From assembly GCA_964035545.1 (NCBI GenBank), contig OZ037769.1, positions 852,501 to 916,500 of the forward strand: a stretch of 64,000 nt of DNA. The letters are read 5' to 3'. Positions within the stretch are counted from its first letter, which is position 1. Every line of letters starts with the position of its first letter. Positions 22,528-63,044 of this stretch are shown here, in pieces. This DNA is from Bugula neritina (taxonomy: Eukaryota > Bryozoa > Gymnolaemata > Cheilostomatida > Bugulidae). A program made the position numbers and the translations under genes. The notes under the pieces are model-generated. The model was not told the DNA's origin. It did no database searches and saw only the letters and a list, made by a program, of their open reading frames with translations.

Positions 22528-22722
22528 TGTTGATGATATGCTGAATAAGCTTTGTTTTTGTTTGTAAAGGTTTATACTTTATACTATGTTATTCGTGTTA
22601 TTAATAATAGTCAGTTTGTGCTTTTAGATCTATCCAGAGTGGACCTTTAATATCTTGAGCAATAAACTATCTTAAACTCTTTGACCGGTCTCTGAATCTA
22701 TAAAGCAAACATAGCATAAACA
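22528..22722 (+). repeat. 5' LTR of the gypsy element
   Basis: 195 bp, TGTTGATGATATGC to CATAGCATAAACA, the same as the 3' LTR by direct reading. AATAAA (in gagcaataaactatc) about 65 bp before its end is the likely polyadenylation signal. Confidence 0.97.
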
Positions 22723-22740
22723 TGGTGCCCCGAGTGAGGA
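22723..22740 (+). other. Primer-binding site of the gypsy element
   Basis: TGGTGCCCCGAGTGAGGA immediately follows the 5' LTR. It starts with the TGG complement of a tRNA CCA end. From memory of tRNA sequences it best fits the 3' end of an elongator tRNA-Met, with about one mismatch. Confidence 0.75.
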
Positions 22741-22831
22741 CTTAAAGAAACTAAAAGTAAAGTGTTTGCTGGAAAGAGAGACAACAAACAATACAACTAA
22801 ATCAAAAACAACAAAAAATCACAATATCAAG

Positions 22832-26500: not shown

Positions 26501-26753
26501 TGTGAGGCGAAACAGGGCCGATTTGCGCCCTCTGAGTGATGTGGAAGCTAGTCAGCCATTGACTACAGTTGAAATACCAACAGACGCCAATGACCCAGTA
26601 TCCAGTCATTCTGTTCCAGACGCACAGATTCAATCAGCCGCAACAGCAATTCCTACAGAAGTGAATACAAACCCTGATCCAACCCCAGTTAGATGGCAAC
26701 GGTCAAGACAAACAAAAACCCCAGCTAAATATGAACAATACGAACTATACTAG
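23502..26753 (+). pseudogene. Gypsy pol (protease, RT, RNase H, integrase) interrupted by one stop codon
   Basis: One frame open from 23502 to a TAG at 25878, then open in the same frame to 26753. Protease: DTGASCNIL near 23690. Reverse transcriptase: DAKDGFLQIKL and VVADDILIYG near 24510 (a VADD form of the YXDD motif). RNase H: TDASLEGLGAVLLQQG near 24975 and HTDHHPLE. Integrase: the H-H and CVTC zinc-binding part near 25660-25770, catalytic GMDI near 25850, SDNGPQF near 26010 and the glutamate in NGKAEAA near 26115. The stop lies between the first catalytic aspartate and the second, so no complete integrase can be made without readthrough. The frame overlaps gag and is +1 relative to it. 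Confidence 0.92.
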
Positions 26754-39600: not shown

Positions 39601-42600
39601 TAATGAATTGCGTTGCATATGGGCCCATGATTGGTGTGAATTGGAGCCAGCTACTTAAGATGAAACATTATATGAGCAGCACCGAGTCCAATACGTCAAG
39701 TGCCTGCCTTCTAATCATACAGGAAGCTGGTGATTTCCAATGAAGGACAATTGCACCGGTTGCACTGGGTAACCAGAGGTAATTTCTTATCCTTTCCAGT
39801 GACTAATGAAGCGCACCATCTTTAGAGAGAGCCAAGGGTATAAACCCCTCCCCCCACCTCCCGGACCCATGTTTTGATGACAGAGTATTAGAAATTTGAA
39901 AAATGTCACAGCTTATATAACTATTTCTTTTGAATAGAAACTTCTGGAGATATTGAAGAATAAAACAGAAGTTGACTAAAAGCAATACAAAAAAATAAAA
40001 AATTAAACTTATATTATTAATAATATGTCTTCTGTCACACGCGAGCGCGCACACACACACTTATCTCTGTCGCACAACACACACCTGTCTCTGTCACACA
40101 ACACACACCTGTCTCTGTCACACAACACACACCTGTCTCTGTCACACAACACACACCTGTCTCTGTCACACAACACACACCTATCTCTGTCACACAACAC
40201 ACACCTATCTCTGTCACACAACACACACCTGTCTCTGTCACACAACACACACCTATCTCTGTCACGACTTCTTTTTCTGCTCCGTGACCTTGATCTGTCA
40301 CGATCCCGTTCTGCGCGACGTTTCTCCATCCTCTCCTCTCGGTCTTTCTCCCGGGCAGCTCGTCTATCAACCACAGTCTTCTACAAACAGCATACGGCAG
40401 CAGTCAGCAGGGGCCCCCAAAAGGAGTGGATACAGATATTCACAGCAAAGGAGAGGGGGTAGTAAGCTTACCTTGAGTTCGTCCAGCTTGTCCCTGATCT
40501 CTATGAATCCGATGTGCAGTTTCCCACCAAAGTGGTCTGCCAGTCTGCGGTCGTTGTCATGGATACCGAGATACGCTCCGCACACCTCACACACCCTCAG
40601 CTTCTGCTGCTGGTAGGTGCTGGCTGGCATTGAGTTCTTAAAGTCTTCCTGTGATAACAGAGAGGGGGTGACAGACCAACCCAACTACGACCAATATACA
40701 GTAGAACAAGGGCTGTGGCATTACTTTCTAGGCTGTACAATATTTTAGTGAAAATATATATTTTCTGCTAAGATTTATAACTCAAAGTATTAAAACACAC
40801 AAATGAAATTACAAGATCTAATGCAAGTCAACAGCACATTTAGGGTTGTCTTATCATTGTAAAGTAACAAGAAAGAGCAGATAACTTCAAAATATGCCCA
40901 CAAACCAACATTTAAATATAATTAGTTGATTGCTTGGTGAATTGGAATGAAGAATTTAATAAACAAAAGCACAGCCACCATGTTCCCAGCTAAACTAGAT
41001 AGAAGCTAAATAGACTGAGAAACTAAATAGACTGAGAAACTAAATAGACTGAGAAACTAAATAGACTGAGAAACTAAATAGACTGAGAAGCTAAATAGAC
41101 TGAGAAACTAAACAGACTGAGAAACTAAATAGACTGAGAACCTACCTCAGCCTCCGCCTTGGCCTTGTTCAGCTCGTCTACTTCAGCCATCAGCTTCATG
41201 GACTCCTCGATGTTACCCTCTGCACCACACGACTCCGCCTTGGCCAGCTTCGTACCGATCTCTTCTCCCAGTTGCAGGATGGCGTCAGCCTGTACAGGTA
41301 AGAGTGACACAGCAGGTGAGAGTGACATCACAGGTGATACTCTCAGCACAGATAAGTTAGTGAACTAGCAACAGACTCAAAACACTCATCCTTAACATAC
41401 CCAGGTGAGATACTCAGGTGAGACACCCAGGTAAGATACTCAGGTGAGACACTCAGGTAAGATACTCAGGTGAGACACTCAGGTGAGATATTGAGGTGAG
41501 ACATAAAGCACCCACCTTGGAGGTTGCCTCCTCTGTGAGATCATCTTGAGTTTCCTTCAGCTTCTTCTTGGCTATTTCCGTGCGACGGTCACAGTCGAGG
41601 ATGAACTCCTCCAGGTGTTCCATGGCGTCGATGTCGTAGAAGTAGTCCCTCTCCTTAGAGGCCGTGTCAAAGTCAGCTCGGAGGGCGTGGTCGTGTACCT
41701 TAGGACACTCCCCCAAATCCATTCTCTACGCAGCAAACATATATAAGTAAGTAGGAGATGTAAGTAAGAGATGTAAGTAAGAGATGTAAGTAAGAGATGT
41801 AAGTACACCAAGAACTATAAATATAAAGTATTGAACTCTAATGTCAATCCACCCGATTATAGTACTAGTTGCAGTCAAAACTCATTTCTAAAAGTACCGC
41901 CCACATTACTCATAGCACCGCCCACATTACTTATAGTACCGCCCACTACACACAGAGAGACAAAGAAAGGAGTCGGAAGGCAGACGCCGAGACACTTACC
42001 GTACTGGAGAGGATGTCGTGAGGACAACACGACAAAAGGAAACTCTTACATACCCTCGAACTATCAAACTTTACTCGACTCTTAGTTTCCTCCCCTAAAA
42101 AACAAAGAGCTGAGCAGTTAGAGCAGAGGCTAACATCACCAGTCGCAAATTCAAGTCACACGCAAAGGATTTATGAATTTCATCTTACGCATCTGTAGAC
42201 CCGTTTTAACTAGTTGCACGCAACCCGATTCAACTCAGAGCTGTCAGCATCTACAAGGCAGCTGAAAGCCGCCTTTGGGCTACAAATATATCATCATATG
42301 CAAACAACAGTACAGAAATCAGTGTGAAACAAGTATTTGCAACGAGTTAAGAGCTTTACCTGGCCTTACCATACTTAATTCCACAAACTGCTATAAGAGA
42401 CTGAAACATTAAAAAGTACGTCATGGTATGCCTTCAACAGTGTGTGCAATCAACAAGATGAAGACATTGAAAAAGTGGGTTTGCTTTGTTTTTTTACAGT
42501 AAACTCACGGAATGGCGGCAAGAAATGTGCTGACAAGCTACGCTGATCTGCCCTATCTTAGGGGCCCAAGGGCCAAGTCCTTCTGGCCTAACGTGGCCGG

Positions 42601-44438: not shown

Positions 44439-44725
44439 TCAGATGACTGGTGATGTCATATCCTGTCTGTTCTCATAAAGAGGAACTGTTGTGTTCAGTT
44501 GAAGTTGTTCATATGCTGATGATGGAGAGGTGGTGAGCTGCTCGTAAGTGTTGGTGGGAGGATTTGCTGAGTTTGAGGGTCGAGTAGACACAGGTTCTTC
44601 ATATACTTCATGTTTATCAGATGGGGTGTCTCTACAGGGCAGACTACTTCTTTTCAAGTAGAGAATAATACTACCCAGTGTAACCACTGCTAGTACCAGA
44701 ACTACCACCACTCCAATCAAACCAT
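44439..44725 (-). CDS. R4 exon 8: transmembrane helix and ITAM-bearing cytoplasmic tail
   Basis: Phase-1 entry (D-G-L-I-G), 22-residue hydrophobic span, YLKRSSLPC stop-transfer, then four tyrosine motifs: YEEP, YEQL, YEQL, YENR. The two YEQL motifs are spaced by seven residues. YENR also fits a Grb2-type pYxN site. It is nearly identical to the R1 tail. Confidence 0.9.
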
Positions 44726-47700
44726 CTAAACACACAAATAATTTACAGTTGATAATTGCAGGTCAAAATTAGCAAAGAAATTATGCTTAGACAAGGCAAT
44801 ATGTATAAATAAATTTGTGCGACCAAAAATGTTCAGAGTAGAACATATCTACTTGACAGATTATAAAGTTTTACAAGACAAATCAATTGTATAGATTTAC
44901 CATTGTATAGTAATGCTGTCAGAGAACTGAAAATTAAGTTGTTCATTGCTGAGCATTACTTGGGTTTAGGTAACTTATCAGTTGTAGTCAATTGCAATAT
45001 TTCGTCAATACAATCACATCTCATATATACAAGCTCACCAATATAATATTTATAAATTTGTTTATAAAGACCGTTATGGTTTGTCACAAACTACTTCCAT
45101 CCGCAATGTATTATTGTACACCTGTGCGGAAATGCAAACTATATAAAACTGTTTTAATTCAGCTCGCTAGAAGTTAAAATAAAAAAACGTGCTCGCTAAA
45201 TATTACATGGTAATAAGCCAATTAGATCAAACACACACGAGCGTGTCGCACTTCTCACTCAGCATGTTAGACACTTGAAAATCCGCACGCAACGTCCAAT
45301 TTTTGAGCTAAATAGCTTTTCTCGCACGTCACGCTCGAGCAAAACGCGTCGTGTGGCCCTACAGTAACAATAGTTTACCAGTGTCACTTACCTCTTTGTG
45401 ACTGAACAGGGAAATGGCTGTTTCCTGAAACTGCAGAAACTTTACCATCTTTGACCAACAAACAACCAGGGTCATGTGACCAGTTACCAGATTCTGTACA
45501 GACATGATCTGTAGTCTTAGTATAACCAATATCACATGAGTAGAGTAGATTATCTCCTCTGTAATATCTGTCTGTCTGTATGTCTCCGTTAGTTAGATTT
45601 AGTGCTGTAGGGTCACACTCAACTGTAAGAATAACCACGGCCACATATATGTATTGTATATACTCCTCAAAGCTGTATTACCATACAACTACAGTTTGAT
45701 GGATGTATATTATTGAAATTAGTCTAAATAATCTTACCAGTTTCAGAACATTCTGGAACACTGGACCAACTACCATCATACTGACATTGGATAACACTCG
45801 GATTTGTTTTCTTGTAACCATAGTAACAATTATACTGTAGAACTTCTTGGTAGAAATATGTGTGAGTTATCCCCCCTTTAGATGTCACATAAGTAGTTGT
45901 TGTGTTGAGAAACAAATCACTAATCTCACATTCCACTGAATAAAAAACAGCAAAGTTTTTTTGCATAATTGCATTGAGACATTATGCTATATTCATGATA
46001 TATTATAGCACAACTATATAGTATAGATATATACCTATTGTACATGTTGAAGATATATTACTCCATATCCATGGTATAATATTACTATATACATATACCT
46101 GGTGTACATGTTAGAGATATATTACTCCATATCCATGGTATATTATCTGTATCAGTAGAACTACATCTAGATACAACTTCTTCTATTCCATTTCTACTTT
46201 CATATCCTTTTATACACTCATATACTGTTGTATGAGTATCAGTCTTAGTTTTAGTAGTAAACTCAACATCTCTCGGCTCTTCTGTACAGTAGGGGACTAA
46301 AAAAGATATTTAAAAGTACTAGTTTGAATTATTAGAATACAATTAGAAGTATTATACTCAGGTATTAGATGAAGTCTATATAATATAATACTTATCATGC
46401 AAGCTTGTGCTATAAATATATACCTGGAATACATTTGATCTCTGATTGGTTGACCCACTTAGCCTCTGTACCATCTACATTACATTCAGAAGTTGAGTTA
46501 TACTTCAACTGATAGTCAGTATCTTCACAAGAATAGTTTATTATCGTACCAGGAAACCAGGGAGATTTAGTAGATGGAGTACTTGTCACATGATCTATTT
46601 CAGGTTTATCTCCACATGTCAGTACTGTGAAACATACAAAATAACATGCAGCAAGATAAACTATAATTAGTCTTATATAATATGTTTTAAAAAGAAAATT
46701 TCTCATTGGTTTGATCAGCCTAATTTCTTGCTCTGATTCTTTGCTTCTCTCACTCACCTGTAAACTGGATCATAAAGAATACTCCCTCTACATCTCCAGA
46801 TACAGGATCTGGTTCTTGTTCATATCTCACAGATAGTTGATTGTTTGTAGAGTTTATGTTATGTAGATATCCATCAGGGAAGTTAGCAAACTCCTGATTA
46901 TCAATAAACCAGAAGTCCTCTTCGAAATCATCTGTCACAATAATAAAATCAAACCTAACATAGTGAGCTGCACTTGGTAGGTTTGATATTGTAAACTCAC
47001 AGGATGGTAATGGCTGTTTATTAATTGTATAAGAGCTGGTGAATATTCCAGTCAACTGTTCAACTTGAAGTCTGTCTGGTATCTGAATATCTTCACCACA
47101 TGATGTCACTGTAACAGAAATTATGCATCCATTTTCTAATTGCTCAATTTGGTAATGCTGTATATATTAGCATAAAACATTAATTTCTTGCACAGGTTAG
47201 CTTTACCTGTAGTATGTACCTGTTGAGAAGAACTCCAAATTGAATCCTGTCATGTTGCTGAGAGTAGAAACTGATAATACAGACGGTTCTTGAGTGAACT
47301 TCTGTATTATACCTTCAGGTCTTGTAGAGTCAATACAGTATGTTGTACCATCTATTTGTATTTCTGTGCAAAAGTATCCTTCAAAATATTTATACCCAAC
47401 TCCTGGTATACTGATATAACTACCAGCAGGTGTTCTCAGAGTTAGACTACATCTAACAGGTGCCCCCTCTATCTCTCTATGTTCTATTATCCCTGCATAT
47501 CCTCTATCAACTGTCACTGTGTTATTATCACATATATTCACTGGTTTAATATCTTGCCCTTTTATCAATATGATGATATAACCACTCAGTAGCAGCAGGA
47601 GTTGTCTTCTGACTGACTGAAACAAGAACGTTTAATATTAGTGTATATACACTTCTACATTTTGTACAGAAAAACTCAACCAAACTCTATGCATGACTAA

Positions 47701-47766
47701 CCCTTTTGCACTGCTGATCCTACTAACTAATATCGGCATACTGTACATACACTGTGTACTTACCAT
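44439..47766 (-). CDS. R4: CUB-like/sushi type I receptor with ITAM-like tail
   Basis: Coding exons: 47766-47764 (ATG only), 47616-47220, 47108-46758, 46624-46424, 46296-46099, 45935-45738, 45622-45392, 44725-44439. The first intron is phase 0, all others phase 1; product about 621 residues. Order: signal peptide (SVRRQLLLLLSGYIIILIKG), CUB-like domain 1 (four Cys), CUB-like domain 2 (SCGEDIQIPD to MIQFTG), four sushi domains each with four Cys and a Trp before the last Cys, a short stalk, transmembrane helix (LIGVVVVLVLAVVTLGSIIL), then a basic KR and a tyrosine-rich tail. The tail has VYEEP, YEQLTTSPSSAYEQL (YxxL-x7-YxxL, an ITAM) and YENR. It should sit on the cell surface, bind a ligand outside and recruit SH2 kinases inside; this role is inferred from motifs. 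Closest paralogue is R1. Confidence 0.88.
45185..45370. other. CpG-rich insertion in the R4 intron before the TM exon
   Basis: A block with many CpG dinucleotides (cacgagcgtgtcgcac, ctcgcacgtcacgctcgagc, aaaacgcgtcgtgtggccct) inside otherwise AT-rich intron. The composition suggests a foreign insertion such as a non-autonomous DNA transposon or SINE, but I find no clear terminal repeats. Confidence 0.4.
47220..47616 (-). CDS. R4 exon 2: signal peptide and CUB-like domain 1
   Basis: The acceptor cttgtttcag is followed by TCAGTCAGAAG. The hydrophobic leader RRQLLLLLSGYIIILIKG precedes QDIKPVNICDNN. C1 and C2 are 27 residues apart, as in CUB domains, and C3/C4 are close together. The apparent upstream start MFQ in this frame is an artefact of the acceptor; the true ATG is in the exon at 47764. 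Confidence 0.8.
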
Positions 47767-47942
47767 TATATTGAAGGTACTCTGTAAGTAGGTAGTTTAT
47801 GTATATAGCTGTGATGTGTTCACCTTGTGTAGTATCTTATACACAGTATAGACTTATATATTCCCAATAATACTAGTCAGGGAGTAAAGTATAGTCTATT
47901 ATCACAAGTCAAATACTTCAGTATATATACTTGTGATTATAG
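47767..47942 (-). promoter_or_regulatory. R4 promoter region with TATA box
   Basis: On the minus strand AATATATAAGTC (TATA core at about 47853-47860) lies about 90 bp before the ATG exon. The same box and flanks recur upstream of R3 and R1. Further upstream is an inverted repeat, ATCACAAGT (47901-47909) and ACTTGTGAT (47929-47937), perfect here and degenerate in R1 and R3. Confidence 0.6.
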
Positions 47943-49469
47943 ATATACTTCCTTGTAGAAAGATAAATAATGTTATCACAATGATTATATTCAACTAGAT
48001 ATATGAACACCTTCACTCTAATCATTCATTCTATAGTCATATACATAGTTATCATACAATACAATATCAAGGTATATTACGTACTTCATACATGGAGGTA
48101 TACCTCTTTAGTGTTTAGTAGATGGGCTCTGCTGGTTATTCATCAACTTCTAACTGCAATTAACAATGAATTTAGAAGCCTTTCACCAAAAGGTGTAGGC
48201 ATAAGATTTAATACAATTTAAAACCATTTAGATTACCCTTTATTGTTTAAGAATTAAAAGCTACCAAAGTTACCACTGGAAAGCAATTAGGATGTACTCA
48301 TGTCTATATATTATTTGTTTTGTATAAAAGGAATAAAATAATAGTTAAGTGTTTTCTCAATGTTTATAACCAACTGCAACTGTGACAAACTAATATTTTA
48401 AAGCATACAATTAAATATAAGCACACTTTTATGCATGAATTCAACAACCTCTTGTTTAAAAAGCATACTGTAGCAGTCTCGTTTCAATTTGTAAAAAGTA
48501 GAAAATTCATTAAGATTTCTGAATTTTAAAATCTACAAAATGTATAGGCTCTGGCAAGGTCAAGGTCAAGTGAAGGGCAAACTTATGACTAGATAGGAAA
48601 CAAATAAATAATTAGAAGATATTTACTTGGAAGTTCATGCAGGAGTCCCAATATTTCCAATACCAGCAAGCAAGATGAGAGAGTATATTGTTCACAAAGT
48701 ATACAATACAGTTTACTGGGTGTATCTTAATTTATTTATATTTTAAAGGTGAATTGTTTCAATACAAGTAAAAAGTTCAGCTGTTTCTCTATTTATATAT
48801 TGTATTCCGTAGGTAGATGTTGTACAATATTAGTGTATATATTCCGTAGGTAGATGATACATGGTCTGACAGCATGGCCTTACGCAGGTACACATCTATT
48901 ACACTCATTTCTGACAAAACATAAAATTATACTACAACAGCAACTCAGTAACAACAGCTTTCCACACATGATATTAATGAATATTTTTGTCATTTGATTA
49001 TAGCTGAATATCAAGTAAACTCTTCAAGGCTCTAGATTTATGCTAGATCAGAGAGTATGATATAATTGTTACGGCAATGATATAATACAGCATGCAGAGA
49101 GATAGCTAATATTTATTAAGGAGAGAATAACTCCGTACATGTTAGTTTAAAGTTGTGTTTATACATCTTTTGAATCTCAACTCGGCCAAATTGAATTTCT
49201 GACTGAAAATCGTGAAGGTATAAAGGCAACTTTACTCTAGAGAGCAGCTCTCTTGATATTAACTATAAATGTCATTACTGAAAGCATAACTGAAACTTGT
49301 ATCTACTAAAGACAAGAGAGTATAATAATTATAATCTTTATGCAAGGAAATAAAACATACAGTGAAAAAATCTCTACTATAAAGTAACATTGTGAATTTG
49401 ATACATGTTGTATGAATAAAGGTTTATGATGCTCACGATTCCTCTCTATATTAGTTATTGTCTCAGGAG
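47943..49469. other. Intergenic region between R4 and R3
   Basis: No coding exon. The first 800 bp (to about 48735) match 63240-64000 at the window edge almost base for base, so it is part of a segmental duplication that includes R4 and R1. Confidence 0.7.
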
Positions 49470-49708
49470 TTATGCCACCTTAGTTGATGGCAAATTGCTG
49501 ATGCCCACACCTACGAACTCGTAAGTGTTGGTGTTGTTGAGAGAATTTGCTGAGTTTGATGGTCGAGTAGACACAGGTTCTTCATATACTTCATGTTTAT
49601 CAGATGGGGTGTCTCTACAGGGCAGACTACTTCTTTTCAAGTAGAGAATAATACTACCCAGTGTAACCACTGCTAGTACCAGAACTACCACCACTCCAAT
49701 CAAACCAT
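49470..49708 (-). CDS. R3 terminal exon: transmembrane helix with ITAM-less tail
   Basis: The first part matches R4 and R1 almost perfectly (IGVVVVLVLAVVTLGSIIL, DTPSDKHEVYEEP). Identity stops after ACTTACGAG, where R4 continues CAGCTC and R3 continues TTCGTAGG. The new end has one YEFV and no second tyrosine motif. Confidence 0.88.
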
Positions 49709-52700
49709 CTAAAACATGTCATGTGATTTATAAAATGTAACACAAAATAGCAAAAGTGAAAGTTTGACAGAGCTCAAAAGAATAGCACAGAGAATGTATA
49801 AATAAAATTTATAAATAAAGTGCGGCTTAATTAGTCGTTATTGAATAAAACAAAGTTATTGCTGGTAACAATGTTTGGATTTTAAAAGTGAGTCAGTTTA
49901 ATTAACCCAGAATAACATCTTTGTTTTAGTTACAATGGTCTCAATTAATTTTCCCTGAATCTGAATATTGTTTATTGTATTTCTAAAGATTTATTTGCTA
50001 TACCAACTGTAGTGGTGTAATAATAGTGCGCCTGCTGTAACCCAGAGTTCTCGGGTTCGAATCCCAGTGGGGGTAAAAGTTTTATGCTATCTCATTGGTT
50101 TGTCAGATTATCTTCTGGCTCCAAGAGTTGGTGAAACTAATTTAATGTGTCTACTAGCTGCTCATTGTATTAATTAGAAATTTAATTTTTACCTTCAACA
50201 ATCAATTTAACAGCATCAAATACCTCTTTGTGACTGAAGGTAGAGCTTGCTCTGCTCTAAGACTTTAAGACGTTTACCATCTTCAACCAACAAACAATCA
50301 GGGTCATGTGACCAGTTACCAGACTCTGTACAGACAGGATCTGTAGTCTTAGTATAACCATCATCGCATGAGTAGAGTAGATTATCTCCTCCGTAATATC
50401 TGCCTGTCTGTAAGTCTCCGTTACTTAGAATCAGTATTGTAGGGTCACATTCAACTATCGAAATAATGGAAAGCACTACTATACTTTAAGTTACTCAGCA
50501 ATCATAGTTTTGCAGTTTTTAAAAATTTGATTAAAAATACGCTGCTTATTAAAATATTAGTAACTATTCGTAACAATCGTATAGTATTGTATCAGATAAT
50601 AATGCGATTTGTGTGCAAAGGGGAGGTTATATACTTGCTTACAATAATATTATAATTTAGTATATAAAATTAAAATATACAGTTTTAGCTTATATACAGG
50701 AGTACATATATCAATTATGAACACATAATTGTTTGCAGTATATTATTACTATATATATACATATACCTGGTGTACATGTTAGAGATATATTACTCCATAT
50801 CCATGGTATATTATCTGTATCAGTAGAACTACATCTAGATACAACTTCTTCTAGTCCATCTCTACTCTCATATCCTTCTATACACTCATATACTGTTGAA
50901 TGAGTATCAGTCTTAATTTTATTAGTAAACTCAACATTTCTTGGCTCTTCTGTACAGTAGGGGACTAGAAAATACAATTATAAGTATTATATTCAGATAT
51001 TAGAGAAAGTCTATATATAATCCTAATTATACAGCCTTGTGTTATGAAAACATACCTGGAATACATCTGATCTCTGATTGGTTGATCCACTTAGCCTCTG
51101 TACCATCTACTTTACATTCAGAAGTTGAGTTATACTTCAACTGATAGTCAGTATCTTCACAAGAGTAGTTTATTATGGTACCAGGAAACGAGGGAGATTC
51201 AGTAGATGGAGTACTTGTCACATGATCTATTTCAGGTTTATCTCCACATGTCAACACTGTAAAAGTACACAGAAGTATGAGCTCATATGCGGCAGACAAT
51301 CTGCATCTTCAAAATCTGAAATAGTTTTAATTGTAGTTTTCGGAATATAATATGTTTTCCATAATGATATTTCGGTAGTGTCTTCACGCAAAACTTATTT
51401 ACTTTGCACTGCTCACTCACCTGTAAACTGAATCATAAAGAATACAGGCTCTACATCTCCAGTAGTAGGATCTCCCTCATTTTCATATCTCACAGAGAGT
51501 TGGTTGTTTGTAGAAATTATGTCATGTGGATATCCATCAGGGAAGTTAGCAAACTCCTGATTATCAATAAACCAGGAGATTCTGGATGATTCTTCAAGCT
51601 CAGTAATAATACTAAACTTAACATAGTGAGCCTCACTTGGTAGGTTTGATATTGTAAACTCACAGGATGATAATGACTGTTTATTAGTTGTATAAGAGCT
51701 GGTGAATATTCCAGTCAACTGTTCAACTTGAGGTCTGTCTGGTATCTGAATATCTTCACCACAGGATGTCACTGTAACAAAAATATGTCTACATATATTG
51801 AACATATATACTACCTTTGCCACAAAGTGAAATGGTCTTCACAGCTTGCTAGAAAACCTTTTTCATCAGGGCTCTTCTCACAAGAATAGCAAACATCAAC
51901 CCTCCTGTTATATACCAATGGACTTTATAAAGTGTTCCTAATAATATCTTACTAATTTGGTGTAACACATGTCTGATATCAAATATACTCGCTATGGTAT
52001 GATATATCCTACAACCTACAACCTAGATGCGTTATTTCTTAATGTTGATTAATCTATGTCCACCAGTCAATAGATAATTGATATTTCTTATATTCCAAAT
52101 GCCAATAAGGTCTGCTGAATATACTGTAAATATATATTGTGTTTAGGTAAGTTGAAGACATAACAAAAGTCAAAACTGAGGGCGACACTAGCTGAGACAG
52201 CAGAATTGGCCATCTGCAAACTGGCAAAATTTCATTGCTACTTCAAAAACTACTGTTTTTCAGTTTCCCTTTAAATATCTTCGTTATGTAAAATTAAAGT
52301 TAAAACTTTGCAATAAAAACATGAAATGCAGTTACGCTGCTAAATAACAGCACTTTTTAATGGTTAGGTGTTCCGCCATTTTGTCACATATACTATAACG
52401 TACTCGTATGCTCTCACTATACACAGCAGTGATTTACTAGTGCTGTTGGGTTGAAAGTCGGCTGCATTTTTAAAACTATAGATAAATAAGTTTGAGTTGC
52501 TGTTCACTGCTACAAATTATCTTCCAATATTCTTACACTGCCTGGAGGGTGGTGGGGGTTATTAAATGGCTGGTATCACCATTGTATAATATAGTAATTT
52601 GACACATTGAAACACTAATTTAATCATTGTCATATTATTCTACTGCAAGAGGTCAGTACATTGTTCTTATAGAGTTATATAATATATAGAGAGGTGAATG

Positions 52701-52810
52701 GAATGAGGCTTTAATAAACCAGCCTTGAATGTTTGAATACAAGATTAACATATAGCGAAAAATATTTTATGAAAACTACATTCTTTCCTAACATATTCAT
52801 CTAGCTATAT

Positions 52811-52881
<71 letters not shown>

Positions 52882-53595
52882 CATGTCACTCAATTTACAA
52901 AATACAAAACTTTTTGCACTTTTGCACCAAAATTTTGCTCATTCAATTAATTTTCCGCTAACTATTATAACGAAAAACTTCATAGTATTTGCATTTCCTT
53001 CAGACAACAAAACTAGCCAAAGATACATAAATATATATTAATATTTACCTGTTGAGAAGAACTCCAGGTTAAATCCTGTCATGTTGCTGAAAGTAGAAAC
53101 TGATAATACAGACTGTTCTTGGGTGAACTTCTGTATTATACCAGGTTCTGTAAAGTCAATACAGTATGTTCTACCATCTATCTGTATTTCTGGACAAATA
53201 GCACCTTCAGCAGCTACCTCAACTCCTGGTATACTGATATAACTACTTATAGCAGGTGCTCTCAGAGTTAGACTACATCTAACAGGTGCTCCCTCTATCT
53301 CTCTATGTTCTATTATCCCTGCATATCCTCTATCAACTGTCACTGTATTATTATCACACATATTCACGGGTTTAATATCTTGTCCTTTTATCAATATAAC
53401 GATGTAACCACTCAGTAGCAGCAGGAGTTGTCTTCCGACTGACTGAAACAAAAACGTTTAATATTAGTATATATATACACTTCTACATTTTGTCCCGAAA
53501 AACTGAATCAAATACTATAATGTATGATTCCCTTATGCACTGTTGATCTTACTAACTAATATCAATATAATGTACATACACTGTGTACTTACCAT
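49470..53595 (-). CDS. R3: CUB-like/sushi receptor lacking sushi 3 and the ITAM
   Basis: Coding exons: 53595-53593 (ATG only), 53442-53049, 51771-51421, 51256-51056, 50964-50767, 50454-50224, 49708-49470; product about 538 residues, phases as in R4. Order: signal peptide (SVGRQLLLLLSGYIVILIKG), CUB-like 1, CUB-like 2, sushi 1, sushi 2, then directly the sushi equivalent to number 4 in the others, stalk, transmembrane helix identical to R4, and a tail that keeps VYEEP but then reads NTYEFVGVGISNLPSTKVA and stops. There is no YxxL pair. No relic of the sushi 3 exon is visible between 50480 and 50760. The intron after exon 2 is large and holds a (TA)n tract. It could act as a decoy, inhibitory or adaptor-dependent partner of the ITAM-bearing paralogues, which is inference. 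Confidence 0.87.
50005..50078 (+). other. tRNA-like sequence (degenerate tRNA or SINE head) in R3 intron
   Basis: A clear B-box and T-arm (CGGGTTCGAATCCCAG) is preceded by an A-box-like tagtggtgtaataatag and a CTGTAAC loop that would give a Tyr-type GTA anticodon. Stems have mismatches and appear to lack a base, so it is more likely a tRNA-derived repeat than a working tRNA. Confidence 0.45.
52814..52880. repeat. (TA)n microsatellite, R3 intron
   Basis: About 32 TA dinucleotides without interruption. Confidence 0.97.
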
Positions 53596-53790
53596 TGTAT
53601 TGAAGATACTCTGTAAGTAGATAGTTTATGTACAAGCTGTGATGTGTACACCTATAGTGTTGTATCTTATACACAGTATAGACTTATATATTTCCAATAA
53701 TACTAGTTAGGGAGTAAAGTATAGTCTATTATCACAAGTCAAATACTTCAGTATATATACTTGGGAATTATAGTTATACTTCCTTGTAGA
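53596..53790 (-). promoter_or_regulatory. R3 promoter region with TATA box
   Basis: The same minus-strand TATATAAGTC box as in R4 and R1, at about 53683-53690, about 90 bp before the ATG exon, in a conserved block reaching about 53780. Confidence 0.6.
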
Positions 53791-54972
53791 AAATTAGATT
53801 ATATTATTACAATGCAATCATTTAATTATAACATATGTATGAAGCTTGTACAAATTTAATTTGTCAATTCAATTATAAAAGCCTTTGTATGCTGTTAAGT
53901 TTGTCACTTATCATTGTACTTACACATTGTAAAAATAGCCCATCGGGTCTTGGCCTTATCCCTATTTTATGTTAGTTATAGCTTTAATATAGAGATATCA
54001 TTGATATTATATGCTATTGTAAAGCTCTACAGCTTCTGTCAGTGCTTGATCATATTATAGACATGATACAGTAGACTTAACTATAATATATTATTCCCCA
54101 ACAACAGTGCTACTCCAACAAATATACAAGCTAGAAAATTCGTTGCCTGCAGCAATAACGATTTCAATGCGTAATGATTCATAGGAATTTAGAATAAATC
54201 AGTTTGAAGAACTATTGTGCACTGTGTCGCTCAAGCTAAATTTATTTGAAAAAGTAGGAGTAAAATTTATTAGATTTTAGTGCCTTGCGCTCTGAAAATG
54301 AGCTAAATATAATACATGAGAGAGTATATTGTTCATAAAGTATACAATACATTCATAAAAGGTGATAATATGAATATTTCTATATTTTAAAAGTTGAATG
54401 ACCAATATTATAAATAAATAACTCCAGACAGGAAAACTATTTGGTATTATAATATAATTTTATTAATTACGCTTTAGTAATAAGTGATATATGGTATGAG
54501 AAATTTTGTAAAACTTGTAGCCTTATAGTTGTAACCTCAAAAGAAAAAAAGCTAAAAACCTTTAGTTATAATTATATTAATTCAAACTAAAAGTAGTTAG
54601 CAGCTGTGGTTTAGGAATAGCTCAGTGAATGTCTTACAGGTACAAATGGCAAATAAAATTATACAAAAATAGAAACTAAAAGTTGTAATCAATAAACTTG
54701 CTTATCAAAAACTAAAGAAAAATGGCTGTAATTGGAAAGTGAAATAAACAAAATGGGATGAATGGGATAGGTATTATAAAATTCTAAACTGAAGTTGCTT
54801 AAAATTTTCCCAATAAAAATGTTGACAATGCAAAAATTAAAAGTCCACTTCGCCAGCAAATAGCATATAGAAAAATCTTCATTTACTGAAAAATGATCAC
54901 TACAACTACAAGTTAATTTTATTAAAAATAAAAAGTATAAATTGCATATAATTTACTATATAATTCCAACAG
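53791..54972. other. Intergenic region between R3 and R2
   Basis: AT-rich, no exon. A short stretch near 54310-54360 (gagagagtatattgttcata) echoes the R4 and R1 upstream flanks, indicating an older shared origin. Confidence 0.55.
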
Positions 54973-55301
54973 TTAAATATTTTCATAAGCTGATGATTCT
55001 AGCTGCAGCTTTTCATATGTTGGTGCAGGAGCTCCGTTGTTTTGTAACTTTTCATAAAGAGAACTTTCATTGTTTACAGGGTTGCCATTGGTTACTGATG
55101 TAGACGTGTCCATTTCCTCATAGTTGTGAGTAGCTGAGTTCACTCTGGGAGAGAGTTGAGTAGACATGGGTTCCTCGTACACATCAGGGTCAAAAAGTGG
55201 GTGGGTTGTACAGGGCAAACTATCTCTTTTCAAGTAGAGTATTATAATACTGATTGTAATCACAGCTACAGGTACTGCTATGGTCAGAGCAATGAGACCT
55301 C
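54973..55301 (-). CDS. R2 terminal exon: transmembrane helix and ITAM-like tail
   Basis: 109 codons including stop; five tyrosine motifs (YEEP, YEEM, YEKL, YEKL, YENI) against four in R1 and R4. The tail has diverged in sequence but keeps the order YEEP, paired YxxL, YEN. Confidence 0.88.
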
Positions 55302-58121
55302 CTGGAAAGAAGTTAATGTTAAGTCTACATAAACATGTGCAAATTCAACAAATTTATATTCTGTAGACAGCTACTGAACTCTAGTGAGAGGGTATGTAAT
55401 ATATTCTGTAAACAGCCACTGAACTCTAGTGAGAGAGTATATAATATATTCTGTAGACAGCCACTGAACTCTAGTGAGAGAGTATATAATAGATAAAATA
55501 GAAGAAACAAGAACTTACCACTGAGTGGCACAATCTTTTCATCTATGGTAGTAGAACGAGTCATATCCTCAGATACAACACAACCAGGGTCATGTGACCA
55601 GTTACCAGACTGTGTACAGACAGGATCTGTAGTCTTAGTATAACCATCATCACATAAGTAGAGTAGATCATCTCCTCCGTAATATCTGTCTGTCTGTTTG
55701 TCTCCGTTAGTTAGGGTTAGTGCTGCTGGGTCACACTCAGCTGTTAGGAAATAACAGAGTCTGTTGAAATAATTTTACATATGAAAACATAACAAGCTAT
55801 ATTATAGGAATATTCTATTATATTTGAACCTATATATAATTACCTGTCTCTGTACATTCTGGAACACTGGACCAAGTTTTATCATGTTGACACTGTATCA
55901 CGTCCATGTTTGTTTTCTTATAACCATAGTAACAGACATATGATAGAACTTCTTGGTAGAGATATGTTTGAGTTGTCCCTCCCTTAGATGTGATGTTAGT
56001 AGTGGAATTATTGATCGAGAGATCAGTGATGTCACACTCAACTAAAGTTATTATTAAAAAACAAACTTGCGGAGGACAAGGAACATATATACGTAGTGTA
56101 AAATAAAAAATTATTATTGAAAAACAAACTTTAAATTGGCAATGAAATTTTTCGCAAAGTAATTTAAGTTGTCATTACTAATTTAGTATATTAAATTTAA
56201 ATTATGTAGTTTTGGCTATAAAGATAGTATGTAATATATATACAATATCTACACTCTACAGTGCATTATTACTATATACATATACCTGGTGTACATGTTA
56301 AAGATATATTAATCCATACCCATGGTATATTATTACTATATACATATACCTGGTGTACATGTTAGAGATATATTACTCCATATCCATGGGATATTATCTG
56401 TATCAGTAGAATTACATCTAGATACAACTTCTTCTATTCCATCTCTACTCTCATATCCTTTTATACACTCATATACTGTTGTATGAGTATCAGTCTTTGT
56501 TTTAGTAGTAAACTCAACATCTCTTGGTTCTTCTGTACAGTAGAGGACTACAGAAACAGCATTTGGAAGTATTATATTTAGTTATTAGAAAAATTCTATA
56601 TTATCCTCATTATACAGGTTTATGTTATGAATACATACCTGGAATACATCTGATCTCTGATTGGTTGACCCACTTAGCCTCTGTACCATCTACTTTACAT
56701 TCAGAAGTTGAGTTATACATCAACTGATGGTCAGTATCTTCACAAGAGTAGTTTATTATTGTACCAGGAAACCAGGGAGATTCAGTAGATGGAGTACTTG
56801 TCACATGATCTATTTCAGGTTTATCTCCGCATGTTAACACTGTGTAAAAGTAAAGAGAAAGTTGGCTCGCATATGGCAGACACAGGGAGAAAGTCCAAGA
56901 TATTTCTGAAAAAAGTTTCAGTTGTAATTTTCAGAATCTAATTTTGGCTGTGACGGCTTTATAATATTTTGATGCTTAAAAACTCATTTATGTGCGTTTT
57001 TCACTCACCTGTAAACTGAATCATAAAGAATACTGATTCTACATCTCCAGATACAGGATCTCCCTCATTTTCATATCTCACAGAGAGTTGGTTGTTTGTA
57101 GAGATTATGTCATGTAGATATCCATCAGGGAAGTTAGCAAACTCCTGATTGTCAATAAACCAAGAGGTTCTGGATGATTCCGTAAGCTCAGTAATATCAA
57201 ACCTAACATAGTGAGCTTCACTTGGTAGGTTAGATATTGTAAACTCACAGGATGATAATGACTGTTTCTTAGTTGTATAAGAGCTGATGAATATTCCAGT
57301 CAACTGTTCAACTTGAGGTCTGTCTGGTATCTGAAGATTTTCACCACAGGATGTTACTGTAAAAGAAATATACCTAGCAAAATTTACTTTAATGCTTATT
57401 ATATTTTTAAAGATATTTGCTCTACAGTGTTGAGTGAACCTTATTAAATGGGTTGCTTCTCAATGAACACTGTATAACTGATAACTAACAACACAATAGC
57501 ATATCACAACTACAGGCAAGTTAATCATTCAAACTATTTGTTAGCTAATAGATATTAGTTTTCTGTACTTTGAAAAGATTTACAAGTTTTTTACATTAGA
57601 ATTACTTATATAAATTCAAAGTGCATCCCTTTACCTGTTGTAAAGAACTCCAAGTTGAATCCTGTCATGTTGCTGAGAGTAGAAACTGATAATACAGACT
57701 GTTCTTGAGTGAACTTCTGTATTATACCAGGTTCTGTAGAGTCAATACAGTATCTTCTACCACCTATCTGTATTTCTGGACAGATATCACCTTCTTCAGC
57801 TACAAAAACTTCTGTAATGCTGATATAACTACCAGCAGGTGCTCTCAGAGTTAGACTACATCTAACAGGTGCTCCCTCTATCTCTCTATGTTCTATTATC
57901 CCTGCATATCCTCTATCAACTGTCACTGTATTATTATCACATATATTCACTGGTTTAATATCTTGTCCTTCTATTAATATGGCTGTGTTATAGATACTCA
58001 ACAGTAGGAGTTGCAGAGGGAAGAACTAAAATATAATTAAATTAAATAATGAAAACTGTAGATTGTAAGATTATATACTAGATACTATCCCATGTGTGTG
58101 TAAATAAGTTTTACTCACCAT
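54973..58121 (-). CDS. R2: divergent CUB-like/sushi receptor with ITAM-like tail
   Basis: Coding exons: 58121-58119 (ATG only), 58025-57635, 57356-57009, 56839-56639, 56547-56350, 56041-55844, 55740-55519, 55301-54973; product about 629 residues, same phases. The signal peptide differs (FFPLQLLLLSIYNTAILIEG). Two CUB-like and four sushi domains follow, then a different stalk (TRSTTIDEKIVPLS), a different transmembrane helix (LIALTIAVPVAVITISIIIL) and YLKRDSLPC. The tail carries VYEEP, NYEEM, YEKLQNNGAPAPTYEKL (YxxL-x9-YxxL, within the accepted ITAM spacing range of 6-12) and YENI. It is the most divergent member, which points to an older duplication, and its preservation of the motif pattern suggests the tail is under selection. 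Confidence 0.88.
55360..55495. repeat. About 48-bp tandem repeat, three copies, R2 intron
   Basis: Unit containing ctactgaactctagtgagag and tgtaatatattctgta, between the sushi 4 and transmembrane exons. Confidence 0.85.
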
Positions 58122-59626
58122 TCTTAGACTGATTTAACCAAGCAATTTCGATTCAAATATGGTTTCTAAAAAGTTACATTTACTCTACATGTATCTGTAT
58201 AGTACAAGACATGCACTGTGTGCTGCAGTTAATCTATAACTAACTTTATCAACTTAGCTCATGAATAGAAGGAGTTTATATTTTAACTTCCTCCTAGTAC
58301 CTATAATGTATTATTCACTCAGCGCTTGCTAATTCATAAGCAAATTGAATATGATCATTAGATAAGCAAACATGTATATCTATAGATAGTAACCAACTTC
58401 CCTATTATATACACTATGTTGAGTATTCTATACTATATACTGCACTAGTTATATGAGGGTTATTTATTTTTCTTAGTTATTTGAATAAAGAACTATTACA
58501 ATGTTTTGCTTTACAATCACATTGAAAACTGATTACCCCATCTAGTATCTAATGTTATACTCACAATCTTGCTCACTGTTAGCAGTTCAGTTTCCTGCAA
58601 TTAGAAACTTCTCTTATCAATTTTGTTTTTCTTGTTGGGTGCAAATACAGATTTCAAAATCACAGAAGAAATATTTTGCTTTCAAAACCAAAATATGCTT
58701 CAATATTACATCAACATACATCTAATGCTAATTCATAAGTATTTTGAAAATACAATACTTGAAAAAACTGAACAATACACACACTGTTGTCAGTTATTGT
58801 ACAGCTAATCATATTATACCAGTTCATTTTCTGCGAAGAATAAAGGCAATGCCTATAATACAGGTGTTGAAATGCGTAGCTATGGAGTAAGTGTAAGAGA
58901 TTAATACTCTGCAATAGATTGTAGTTATTGTAATATATAATCATGTGTTTTATCATAGCATTGTAGCTATACAAGCTTTTAGAGAAAAAGCTATGAAAAG
59001 CTTTCAGCTAAATAGCTAATGCTTGATGTATAAATAATGTTTCTAATCTCTCTGTACTATGCAACTAGTTAATACATGTCCTACTCCCAATAATACATGT
59101 TTATTATAAATAATTCTATAGCTAATATTGCAGAGTATCAATTTATATAGAAATTGCTTTTCATAGATTTATTGGGATTAAAGATGATGGTTGAAACAGA
59201 CTTTGTAGCTAGGTATATGCACCTATATTGTATAATAAAAGAATAACTTTTTAAAACTTATCTCATTCACCATCACAGTGCAAAATACAACTACTAATAA
59301 ATTTGTTATTAAATTTCAGAGCATGTGGGCAAAAAATAGAAAAGCAGTAAATAAAATTGTTTGTTCTGACAAATGATAAAATTCTAATATTCAGTAATGT
59401 GAGTTTTAGTAGTGCAAAAAATAAATAATTCAAACTAAAATATAACTTTACAAAACTGAGTTGTGAAGACAATTCACATGGTATCAAAAAATTGGTAGAA
59501 GTATTAAATACTAAATACAAGCATGTAAAAGTTTTCAGTTGCAAAAAGCAGTAGAATCAGAAATAAAGTGTGCATAATTAAGCAAGCAATTATAATACTG
59601 TGTTTACTGTAATATATATAGTATAG
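58122..59626. other. Intergenic region between R2 and R1
   Basis: AT-rich. No TATATAAGTC promoter block like those of R1, R3 and R4 was found upstream of R2. The right part (about 59390-59626) aligns with 44160-44438, so it is the duplicated R1/R4 3' flank. Confidence 0.6.
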
Positions 59627-59913
59627 TCAAATGACTGGTGATGTCATTTCCTGTCTGTTCTCATAAAGAGGAAATGTTGTGTTCAGTTGAAGTTGTTCAT
59701 ATGCTAATGATGGAGAGGTGGTGAGCTGCTCGTAAGTGTTGGTGGGAGGATTTGCTGAGTTTGAGGGTCGAGTAGACATAGGTTCTTCATATACTTCATG
59801 TTTATCAGATGGGGTGTCTCTACAGGGCAGACTACTTCTTTTCAAGAAGAGAATAATACTACCCAGTGTAACCACTGCTAGTACCAGAACTACCACCACT
59901 CCAATCAAACCAT
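59627..59913 (-). CDS. R1 exon 8: transmembrane helix and ITAM-bearing tail
   Basis: 287 nt, same length as in R4. YEQL-x7-YEQL spacing is kept and the only changes near it are conservative (SSA to SLA). Confidence 0.9.
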
Positions 59914-62900
59914 CTAAATGAAATTCATATAATTAATAAAATAATAAACAAAATAAAGAAAATTTTTATCTATATAGGTATAAATAAGATAAGTAGAGTG
60001 GAAAACCCTGCTAAAGCTCTAATGCATGAAACAATAAAGAATTTTCTGCAAACAAGTTTAATCGCAGCAAAACCATTATTGTAAAACATAAGGCTTTTTG
60101 GCTGCAGCTTGAAATTCTTGATTTGCTCCAATCATCTGTCAGTTTGAACCCCAGTAGCTGACACTTCCTAACCAGTTGTTTAAGTTACTGAGTACTTTAT
60201 ATATGCATGTATAACTGAATACTAGTCTAATGACAGTTTAACAGCATCACTTACCCCTTTGTGACTGAGGGTATAATCCACTGTTCCCTGTGACATCAGT
60301 AGATTCACCATCTCTGACCAACAAGCAACCAGGGTCATGTGACCAGTTACCAGACTCTGTACAGACAGGATCTGTAGTCTTAGTATAACCATCATCACAT
60401 GAGTAGAGTAGATTATCTCCTCTGTAATATCTGTCTGTCTGTATGTCTCCATTACATTGATTAAGTGCTGCCGGCTCACATTCAACTGTCATAATAGACA
60501 GTAAAATGTATAGAAAATATGAACCAAAATAAATGAAATGATGCCAAACTATTATGTAAAAATTTTTGTTGAGTTTTTCTTTTCATGTATAAAAAAATGA
60601 TAATATACTTTTAAGCTTGTAGCAAACTTGTATTATATGCTAAAAATAAAAATCACAATTAATCACCTGTTTGTGTACATTCTGGAATACTGGGCCAAGT
60701 TTTATCATGTTGACACTGTAACACATCCATGTTTGTTTTCTTGTAACCATAGTAACAGTCATATGATAGAACTTCTTGGTAGACATATGTGTGAGTTATC
60801 CCTCCTTTAGATGTGATCATAGTAGTGGAGTCATTGATGGAGAGATCAGTGATGTCACACTCAACTAAAATTGTTAATAAAAAACAAACTTGCAAATGGC
60901 AATGAGATTTTTACACAAAAAGATTTTATACTTGTTATTATTAAAATTTAGTATGTCAAAAAATAAAATATGCAGTTTCAGTTACAAATATTGTACATAT
61001 ATATGTATTCTTTACAGTACATTTTCACAACTGTGTTATATACCTATTGTACATGTTAGAAATATATTACTCCATATCCATGGTATATTATCTGTATCAG
61101 TAGAACTACATCTAGATACAACTTCTTCTATTCCATCTCTACTCTCATATCCTTTTATACACTCATATACTGTTGTATGAGTATCAGTCTTAGTTTTATT
61201 AGTAAACTCAACATTTCTTGGCTCTTCTGTACAGTAGGGGACTATAAAATACAATTATAAGTATTATGTTAAGTTAATAGAGACATTTTAAATATAATAT
61301 TTCTATTACGTAGCTTTATATTATGAATACATACCTGGAATACATCTGATCTCTGATTGGTTGACCCACTTAGCCTCTGTACCATCTACTTTACATTCAG
61401 AAGTTGAGCTATACTTCAACTGATAGTCAGTATCTTCACAAGAATAGTTTATTATTGTACCAGGAAACCAGGGAGATTCAGTAGATGGAGTACTTGTCAC
61501 ATGATCTATTTCAGGTTTATCTCCGCATGCTAGAACTGCCAAAGAAAACAAAAGTAAGCTCATATGTGGTAGAAACAGGGAGAAAGTCTAAGATATTTCT
61601 GAAAATACTTTTAATTGTAGTTTTCACAATCTAATTTTGGCAGTGAATGCATTATAATATAATATAATAATTATGTTATAAACTCTTATATGTATAAATT
61701 TCTCACTCACCTGTAAACGTAATCATAAAGAATACTGAGTCTACATCTCCAAATAGAGGATCTGGTTTTTGTTCATATCTCACAGAGAGTTGGTTGTTTG
61801 TAGAGGTTATGTCATGTAGATATCCACCAGGGAAGTTAGCAAACTCCTGATTATCAATAAACCAAGAGATTCTGGATGATTCTGTAAACTCAGTAATCAT
61901 ATCAAACCTAACATAGCGAGCTTCACTTGGTAGGTTTGATATTTTAAACTCACAGGATGATAATGACTGTTTATTAGTTGTATAAGAGCTGGTGAATATT
62001 CCAGTCAACTGTTCAACTTGAGGTCTGTCTGGTATCTGAATACCTTCACCACAGGATGTTACTGTAAAACCCCAGCAAATGGCATATTATATATTATTTT
62101 ACACAATACAAATAATTGTTATATTTTGTAGATATTTTTTCACAGCAATATTTTAGTAGAAAGTGAATTGAGAAAAAGCCAGTCTCACAACTCAGCTGAT
62201 CATAGCAAACTTAAGATAACATGTCATAAACACTTACTAAAGTTTAGTGTAGTGTTGAGGGAACCTTATTAAACGGCTTATATACTTTCTAATATACATG
62301 GAGTCTGCTAACAATATATCTTAACTACTTGTTTGCACAGGCAAGCTGCTAAATGCTAACTCAAGATTATTACTAACCTCAATGCAATAAGAATGCTATA
62401 CTCTAGCTACTAGTGTTTGAAATTTTTTTAATATAAAAAGATACATTCATAGATATACAAGAGACATTATGAATTCAGTAATTTCTACCTGTTGTAAAGA
62501 ACTCCAGGTTAAACTCTATCATGTTGCTGAGGTTAGAAACTGATAATACAGACTTTTCTTGAGTGAACTTCTGTATTATACCAGGTCTTGTAGAGTCAAT
62601 ACAGTATGGTGTACCATCTATCTGTATCCCTTTCTGTATCTCTGGACAGATAGCACCTTCAGCAGCTTCATCAACTCCTGGTATACTGATATAACTACCA
62701 GCAGGTGCTCTCAGAGTTAGACTACATCTAGCAGGTGCTCTCTCTATCTCTCTATGTTCTATTATCCCTGCATATCCTCTATCAACTGTCACTGTATTAT
62801 TATCACATATATTCACTGGTTTAATATCTTGTCCTTTTATCAATATGATAATATAACCACTCAGTAGCAGCAGGAGTTGTCTTCTAACTGACTGAAATAA

Positions 62901-63044
62901 GAACGTTTAATATTAGTGTATATATATAAACTCCTACATTTTGCACAGTAAAGCTCAACCAAATTCTATGCATGACTAACCCTTTGCACTGCTGATCCTA
63001 CTAACTAATATCAATATAATGTACATACACTGTGTACTTACCAT
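59627..63044 (-). CDS. R1: CUB-like/sushi type I receptor with ITAM-like tail
   Basis: Coding exons: 63044-63042 (ATG only), 62891-62489, 62061-61711, 61535-61335, 61241-61044, 60864-60667, 60485-60255, 59913-59627; product about 623 residues. Domain order and phases are as in R4: signal peptide (SVRRQLLLLLSGYIIILIKG), two CUB-like, four sushi, transmembrane helix, tail with YEEP, YEQLTTSPSLAYEQL and YENR. CUB-like 1 has a small insertion (QKG before IQID) relative to the others. The sushi 2 exon ends ATAG|GTATAT rather than CCAG|GTATAT, matching the second, unused donor copy in R4. Ectodomain differences from R4 are spread over all domains while the tail is almost unchanged. Confidence 0.88.

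Follow-up and report, generated by a model that had tools for sequence, protein, structure and literature searches.

Gene models and extent of the receptor cluster

The stretch of DNA analysed here (64,000 nucleotides, referred to as the window) belongs to chromosome 5 of the colonial bryozoan Bugula neritina (C5:852501-916500, chromosomes being abbreviated as C) and carries, within a genome of 215.8 Mb, four genes named A to D that are predicted to encode single-pass receptors with tyrosine-rich cytoplasmic tails. The published assembly, tzBugNeri2.1, comprises nine chromosomes and 216.00 Mb (PMC11480708). An earlier note on this DNA had proposed four paralogues in one orientation, and all four could be assembled on the minus strand with GT/AG junctions and consistent phase (Table 1). 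The range that it gave, 44439-63044, was exact: gene D begins with its ATG at 63044, and the last base of the gene A stop codon is 44439. The genes share a layout consisting of an exon that holds only the ATG, an exon encoding the signal peptide and domain 1, an exon encoding domain 2, three or four sushi exons, and an exon encoding the transmembrane (TM) helix together with the tail. The ATG exon is directly followed by a phase-0 intron, and all later junctions are in phase 1. Each of the proteins A-D shows one strong TM peak and one N-terminal hydrophobic peak, as expected from the single TM helix and the signal peptide previously attributed to them, and the gene D protein has a weak additional hydrophobic peak at residue 238.

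Table 1. Receptor genes A-D and their tail exons, in window positions (exons in order of transcription; aa, amino acids)
Feature	Position	Strand	Description
Gene D (g7)	59627..63044	-	623 aa, D-type tail; exons 63044-63042 (ATG), 62891-62489 (signal + domain 1), 62061-61711 (domain 2), 61535-61335, 61241-61044, 60864-60667, 60485-60255 (sushi 1-4), 59913-59627 (TM + tail)
D-type tail exon, gene D	59627..59913	-	TM, YEEP, YEQL-x7-YEQL, YENR
Gene C (g8)	54973..58121	-	629 aa, C-type tail; exons 58121-58119, 58025-57635, 57356-57009, 56839-56639, 56547-56350, 56041-55844, 55740-55519, 55301-54973 (TM + tail)
C-type tail exon, gene C	54973..55301	-	TM, YEEP, YEEM, YEKL-x9-YEKL-x6-YENI
Gene B (g9)	49470..53595	-	538 aa, three sushi exons, truncated tail; exons 53595-53593, 53442-53049, 51771-51421, 51256-51056, 50964-50767, 50454-50224, 49708-49470
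Truncated tail exon, gene B	49470..49708	-	YEEP, YEFV, no pair; same type in g6
Gene A (g10)	44439..47766	-	621 aa, D-type tail; exons 47766-47764, 47616-47220, 47108-46758, 46624-46424, 46296-46099, 45935-45738, 45622-45392, 44725-44439 (TM + tail)
D-type tail exon, gene A	44439..44725	-	YEQL-x7-YEQL

Copies of the exons were counted across the genome. The domain-1 exon gave 22 matches, all located at C5:591-951 kb (17 with at least 78% identity and five with at most 67%), the domain-2 exon gave 23, of which 22 fell within the same cluster and one on C2, and the tail exon gave 15, all within the cluster. The cluster is composed of about twenty similar putative receptor genes on C5. Eleven genes lie in a row and in a single orientation at C5:897-951 kb, and the window holds four of these 11. 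Gene models were read in three stretches of C5 (852.5-953.5 kb, 676-696 kb, and 698-718 kb). The gene readings leave out three genes at C5:590-615 kb, which had no tail match. Intact models were obtained for 10 of the 11 array genes, g6 being broken by a one-base frameshift in the second sushi exon, and g4 is open with the first cysteine of its last sushi exon lost. An exon in which ATG is directly followed by GT(A/G)AGT was present upstream of domain 1 in 14/14 genes checked. This check, as well as the exon statistics, the comparisons of nonsynonymous (pN) and synonymous (pS) differences, and the trees, leaves out the divergent genes g11 and g15-g18; the exon statistics additionally leave out g1 (domain 1), g6 (sushi 2), and g12 (sushi 4), which have a stop in the extended exon or a frameshift. 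A full-length protein query against a set of 5.8 billion sequences returned nothing at E ≤ 0.001, not even sushi proteins of the type that matched well in the PDB, and exon-sized queries did match relatives. This set seems to be poor in full-length animal proteins, and the full-length null was therefore not counted as a sign of novelty.

Ectodomains, tails, and putative signalling partners

The three or four sushi domains described earlier were recovered, with four sushi exons in A, C, and D and three in B. In the two proteins scanned, the Pfam Sushi family scored above its cut-off (A, 52.9 bits; C, 51.6 bits; three stretches each), and by position every sushi exon of A-D encodes at least four cysteines, with five in the last sushi exon of D. 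Sequence matches of protein C in the PDB were sushi proteins, among them CR1, CR2, beta-2-glycoprotein I, and factor H, and were confined to the sushi stretch; the N-terminal domain pair and the tail of the protein had no match in that search. The two CUB-like domains of the earlier note stood only in part: for domain 2, CUB proteins were the first matches of a weak model, and domain 1 gave no clear match. The Pfam CUB family had no match in proteins A and C even up to E 10, and no immunoglobulin (Ig) families were found among their Pfam matches. When domain 2 was modelled by AlphaFold with four paralogues, the resulting weak model (predicted local distance difference test, pLDDT, 59.8; predicted template modelling score, pTM, 0.57) had CUB or spermadhesin structures as its eight best matches in the PDB (E 6e-3 to 2.6e-2, none at or below 1e-3), followed by other beta-sandwich proteins; going by this model, domain 2 is probably a CUB domain. 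Elsewhere in the genome, the scored list contains dense clusters of sushi exons at C1:3.24-3.46 Mb, C1:33.48-33.51 Mb, C2:28.07-28.11 Mb, and C7:7.99-8.00 Mb, which suggests the presence of further expanded sushi families.

The tails that were read comprise seven of D-type, four of C-type, two truncated (gene B and g6, cut at the same point), and two divergent (g15 and g16). The earlier note had reported two YxxL motifs spaced by 7 or 9 residues in three tails, and these were found in tails A, C, and D at spacings of 7, 9, and 7, respectively; the YEKL-x6-YENI of tail C was absent from that note. A Yxx[L/I] pair at the spacing of an immunoreceptor tyrosine-based activation motif (ITAM; 6-8 residues) was present in 10/15 genomic tails. 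Such a strict pair arose by chance in only 70 of 20,000 shuffles of the D-type tail and in 104 of 20,000 of the C-type tail. YENx occurs in 11/15 tails and YEEM in all four C-tails, and in the D-type tail of g13 the second tyrosine of the pair has been lost. In B and g6, the truncated tails have one short 3' sequence in common at their end, and a similar sequence in another frame lies behind g12 (window 49470-49560, L064, and L069); a shared repeat may have cut off the tyrosine pairs. Divergent members at C5:676-708 kb (L069, L071, and L072) carry other tails. Those of g15 and g16, which have no splice models, are tyrosine-rich and without a pair, and those of g11, g17, and g18, read from open frames without splice models, are apparently short and basic and lack tyrosine motifs.

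From low to high coordinates, the array tails are D, truncated, C, D, truncated, C, D, C, D, C, and D, and the C and D classes largely alternate. Trees were built for 11 genes, with g6, g9, and g12 left out besides the divergent genes and domain 1 not included. The tail tree separates C from D with 100/100 support. For domain 2 and sushi 1-2, monophyly of the four C-tail genes was rejected (approximately unbiased test, p 0.0087), and clustering of the tail label did not exceed that of shuffled labels (262 of 500 as low). In comparisons of C-tail with D-tail array genes, pS is 0.10 in domain 2, 0.08 in sushi 1, and 0.06 in sushi 2, as compared with 0.20 in domain 1, 0.43 in sushi 3, and 0.32 in sushi 4. 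Alignable DNA extends over 3.8-4.7 kb among the four C-tail genes and over 1.7-2.4 kb between these and the D-tail genes. The simplest reading of these sequences is that the tail classes are old and that gene conversion or unequal exchange would carry a portion of the head from one to the other. Similar heads exchanged between different tails, a feature of paired receptors, were found for domain 2 and sushi 1-2. A comparable exchange apparently takes place in the paired receptors of vertebrates.

Variation between the copies is concentrated in particular loops. In domain 1 (13 copies), pN is 0.000 in windows of columns 29-41 versus 0.25-0.37 in columns 69-89, and in domain 2 (14 copies), it is 0.006 in columns 65-73, about 0.21 in columns 53-65, and 0.26 in columns 101-109. 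Related sequences were also found outside this genome, namely eight domain-2 open reading frames (ORFs; 45-92% identity) and five tail ORFs, from JGI records, together with the Bugula neritina hypothetical protein EB796_002687 (P0011), which was retrieved in the tail search and has a D-type tail. By reading, the outside tails comprise D-, C-, and truncated types, the truncated-like ones being in metagenome ORFs P0012 and P0013. Seven of the domain-2 ORFs (three of them partial; P0008 was left out as divergent) were compared with the 14 genomic copies, and none was identical, the best identities being 80-95%; three outside D-tails matched the genome at 92/94, 88/94, and 88/94 positions. The column variability of the outside ORFs agreed moderately with that of the genomic copies (Spearman 0.38, p 2.6e-5, 116 columns). 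These ORFs suggest polymorphism of the receptor genes, and the evidence is suggestive only, because the three genes at C5:590-615 kb lie outside the comparison.

A scan of the genome for SH2 domains gave 46 matches among 58 candidates. At C4:3.66 Mb, locus L073 shows two SH2 domains followed by a kinase; inspection by eye revealed no ankyrin repeats. Its N-terminal SH2 exon is closest to ZAP-70 and SYK, and a patchwork of its exons matched ZAP-70 (1e-113), SYK (2e-112), an entry labelled EGFR (5.8e-107), and ABL1 (8e-63). Locus L066 (C7:14.37 Mb) has the order SH2, ankyrin repeats, SH2, and kinase, which we take to be the order of SHARK. For an SH2 exon at C3:23.74 Mb, the closest match is SHP-2 (5e-30). 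The Bugula genome is predicted to encode one Syk-like and one SHARK-like kinase and contains an SH2 exon resembling that of SHP-2, so that a tandem-SH2 kinase of the Syk family is available in the genome that carries the tails (L073 and L066).

Proposed mechanism and alternative explanations

The genes probably encode single-pass (type I) cell-surface receptors of Bugula neritina that form a lineage-specific family expanded in tandem, signal in an ITAM/Syk-type manner, and are arranged like paired receptors. The earlier proposal of a receptor family with ITAM-like tails is in line with the pair kept in most tails, the two diverged tail classes, and the Syk-like and SHARK-like kinases. In the mechanism envisaged, the variable loops of the N-terminal domains would bind the ligand, with the sushi domains as a stalk, and clustering of the receptors would lead Src-family kinases to phosphorylate the YxxL/I pairs, on which the tandem SH2 domains of Syk or SHARK would dock. 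Phosphorylated YEEM, YEEP, and YEN are PI3K-, Crk/Nck-, and Grb2-type sites, respectively, and could add the corresponding branches. With similar heads on two different tails, the family would be arranged as paired receptors, and related ligands would have two outputs. Immune or self/non-self sensing by colony cells or epithelia would be the most likely use, and the cluster is a candidate for the sensing by the colony of self, strangers, or microbes. The tandem array, variable loops, and exchange between heads and tails add weight to the self/non-self or pathogen-sensing role previously inferred.

Several observations weigh against this interpretation. The pair is missing in 5/15 tails, and an acidic residue upstream of the first tyrosine, as in classical ITAMs, was found in 0/10 pairs; because this residue is missing, the tails are called ITAM-like and not classical ITAMs. 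In D-type cytoplasmic tails, pN (0.027) exceeds pS (0.011), so purifying selection on them is not shown; the values in C-type tails are 0.039 and 0.101, respectively. The fold of domain 1 is unproven, its model having a pLDDT of 43.8 and no clear match in the PDB. Sushi 3-4 follow the tail class, their tree keeping the C-tail genes together with 100/100 support, and the tree of domain 2 and sushi 1-2, from which domain 1 is absent, is poorly resolved, with 6/8 inner branches open. Positive selection is not claimed, since the variable loops show an elevated pS as well and no head exon reaches an overall pN/pS of 1 (0.61 in domain 1, 0.92 in domain 2, and 0.29-0.82 in sushi exons). In L073, the second SH2 domain is split over exons, and its first piece scored 17.6 bits, under the Pfam cut-off of 21. 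Finally, the tails contain sites that resemble immunoreceptor tyrosine-based inhibition motifs (ITIMs), and their Yxx-hydrophobic sites also fit a general endocytic sorting signal.

These last two points correspond to alternative functions of the tails. The tails could be inhibitory or serve for mixed docking, with SHP-2 bound at paired ITIM-like sites, above all in the C-tails, and the YxxL/I pair would then have no ITAM function. All four C-tails have two or three [SIVL]xYxx[IVL] sites, and shuffling the C-tail produced at least two in only 191 of 20,000 cases, a frequency close to that of the strict ITAM pair; the genome has an SHP-2-like SH2 exon, and the FcoRs of Botryllus carry ITIMs as described in the available text of PMC12065747. 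However, each of the six D-tails that keep the pair has a single such site, and at least one was found in 2310 of 20,000 shuffles of the D-tail, far more often than the strict ITAM pair, and we regard this explanation as unlikely. It appears even less likely that the motifs are primarily endocytic sorting signals of uptake (scavenger-like) receptors, in which SH2 signalling would be secondary or absent: YEQL, YEKL, and YENI fit the general sorting pattern, but sorting alone does not explain the 6- and 7-residue spacing, the recurrence of YENx in most tails, or the YEEM in every C-tail.

Other explanations concern the ligand and the origin of the array. B. neritina is a host that bears a symbiont (PMC7576161, available text). 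Germline-encoded variable arrays are common in microbial sensing. The bacterial symbiont or other microbes, rather than other colonies, may tentatively be considered as the ligand, which would be compatible with the signalling part of the interpretation favoured here. Ordinary expansion of an adhesion or matrix receptor through tandem duplication and gene conversion, with loops varying by relaxed constraint, would agree with the pN/pS values of the head exons, with the abundance of sushi domains genome-wide (150 scored of 480 candidates), and with the defects of some members, namely one array gene broken, one without a sushi cysteine, and one tail elsewhere without a tyrosine. It is nevertheless improbable, because the variation is restricted to loops next to near-invariant blocks and the column pattern recurs moderately in the independent ORFs. 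Going beyond the ITAM/Syk-type receptor family proposed above, a more specific scenario would be a bryozoan self/non-self or immune paired-receptor complex in which gene conversion shuttles near-interchangeable heads between an activating-type tail (YEQL-x7-YEQL) and an ITIM-like/PI3K-type tail, as an independent lophotrochozoan counterpart, converged on Src-ITAM-Syk logic, of the receptor clusters of Botryllus, Hydractinia, and vertebrate natural killer (NK) cells; this scenario is considered less likely than not.

Relation to known receptors and other features of the window

The earlier note knew of no described family of this build, and searches of the open-licence literature found none, including for bryozoans. 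A tunicate frame for the genes does not hold, the host being a colonial bryozoan and a Bugula neritina protein carrying the D-type tail. The system nearest in kind is the FcoR/fester system of Botryllus schlosseri, likewise a colonial animal with clustered multigene type I receptors that combine sushi domains and a tyrosine-motif tail, so the general idea has precedent. As described in the available text of PMC12065747, FcoRs have Ig and sushi heads and ITIM or hemITAM tails, are known from 53 loci so far, and are encoded in pairs with fester genes. They differ in having V-type and C2-type Ig domains and one sushi domain (PMC12065747), whereas the Bugula receptors have two domains described as CUB-like, three or four sushi domains, and an ITAM-spaced pair; Botryllus is a chordate and Bugula a bryozoan, and the likeness is one of description, with no sequence relation shown. 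The Alr receptors of Hydractinia also belong to a colonial animal and are clustered, variable, and single-pass, with ITAM/ITIM tail motifs mentioned in the same source (PMC12065747, available text).

Hydractinia is a cnidarian, and the Ig-like ectodomains and established allorecognition role of Alr set it apart from the Bugula receptors. Vertebrate paired receptors (KIR, LILR, and SIRP) have Ig or lectin heads, and their activating members usually signal through separate adaptor chains. As in the Bugula array, their signalling tails differ while the heads are similar, apparently through sequence exchange, but in Bugula the pair sits in the receptor's own tail, where two outputs are proposed from motif content. 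The likeness of protein C to CR1, CR2, beta-2-glycoprotein I, and factor H is limited to the sushi stretch. In flies, Src42A phosphorylates the ITAM of Draper and Shark is then recruited (PMC4503800, available text), so that ITAM signalling in a protostome has precedent. The comparison with the Bugula receptors rests on Draper-I being a protostome receptor with an ITAM of its own, to which a Syk-family kinase is recruited after Src phosphorylation; as a CED-1-family receptor for damage and corpses, it belongs to a different receptor family (PMC4503800).

Historecognition in bryozoans is described as well documented in the available text of PMC12018476, and histocompatibility of a cheilostome was studied as early as 1983 (cited in PMC11686985, available text). 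In the available part of the 2020 draft genome paper on B. neritina, only a weak similarity to Alr1 is given, and the word sushi is absent from the main text. A chromosome assembly of the species exists and an alternate haplotype is deposited, and with the variable heads and ITAM-spaced tails mapped to a single cluster, self-recognition in bryozoans would become directly testable. If both the ITAM reading and a role in allorecognition were true, bryozoans would be a third colonial phylum with unrelated recognition domains on the same signalling logic.

Three further features were observed in the window. Beside the receptor array, on the minus strand, lies a gene at 40012-42155 that is presumably a LUC7-like splicing factor, whose charged tail contains or is followed by an in-frame tandem repeat (CVLCDRDR). 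On the plus strand, a retroelement at 22715-26750, which we assume to be Ty3-like, has gag-like, reverse transcriptase-like, and integrase-like open frames. A paired-domain gene, which we take to be Pax-like, is located at 8380-9745 on the minus strand, with the first half of the domain in exon 9745-9580 and the second (RED) half in two back-to-back exons, 8802-8605 and 8577-8380, that have the same phase and each its own AG and GT. These two exons are only 27 nucleotides apart, which is too short for an ordinary intron, and mutually exclusive splicing of two DNA-contact halves is therefore predicted.

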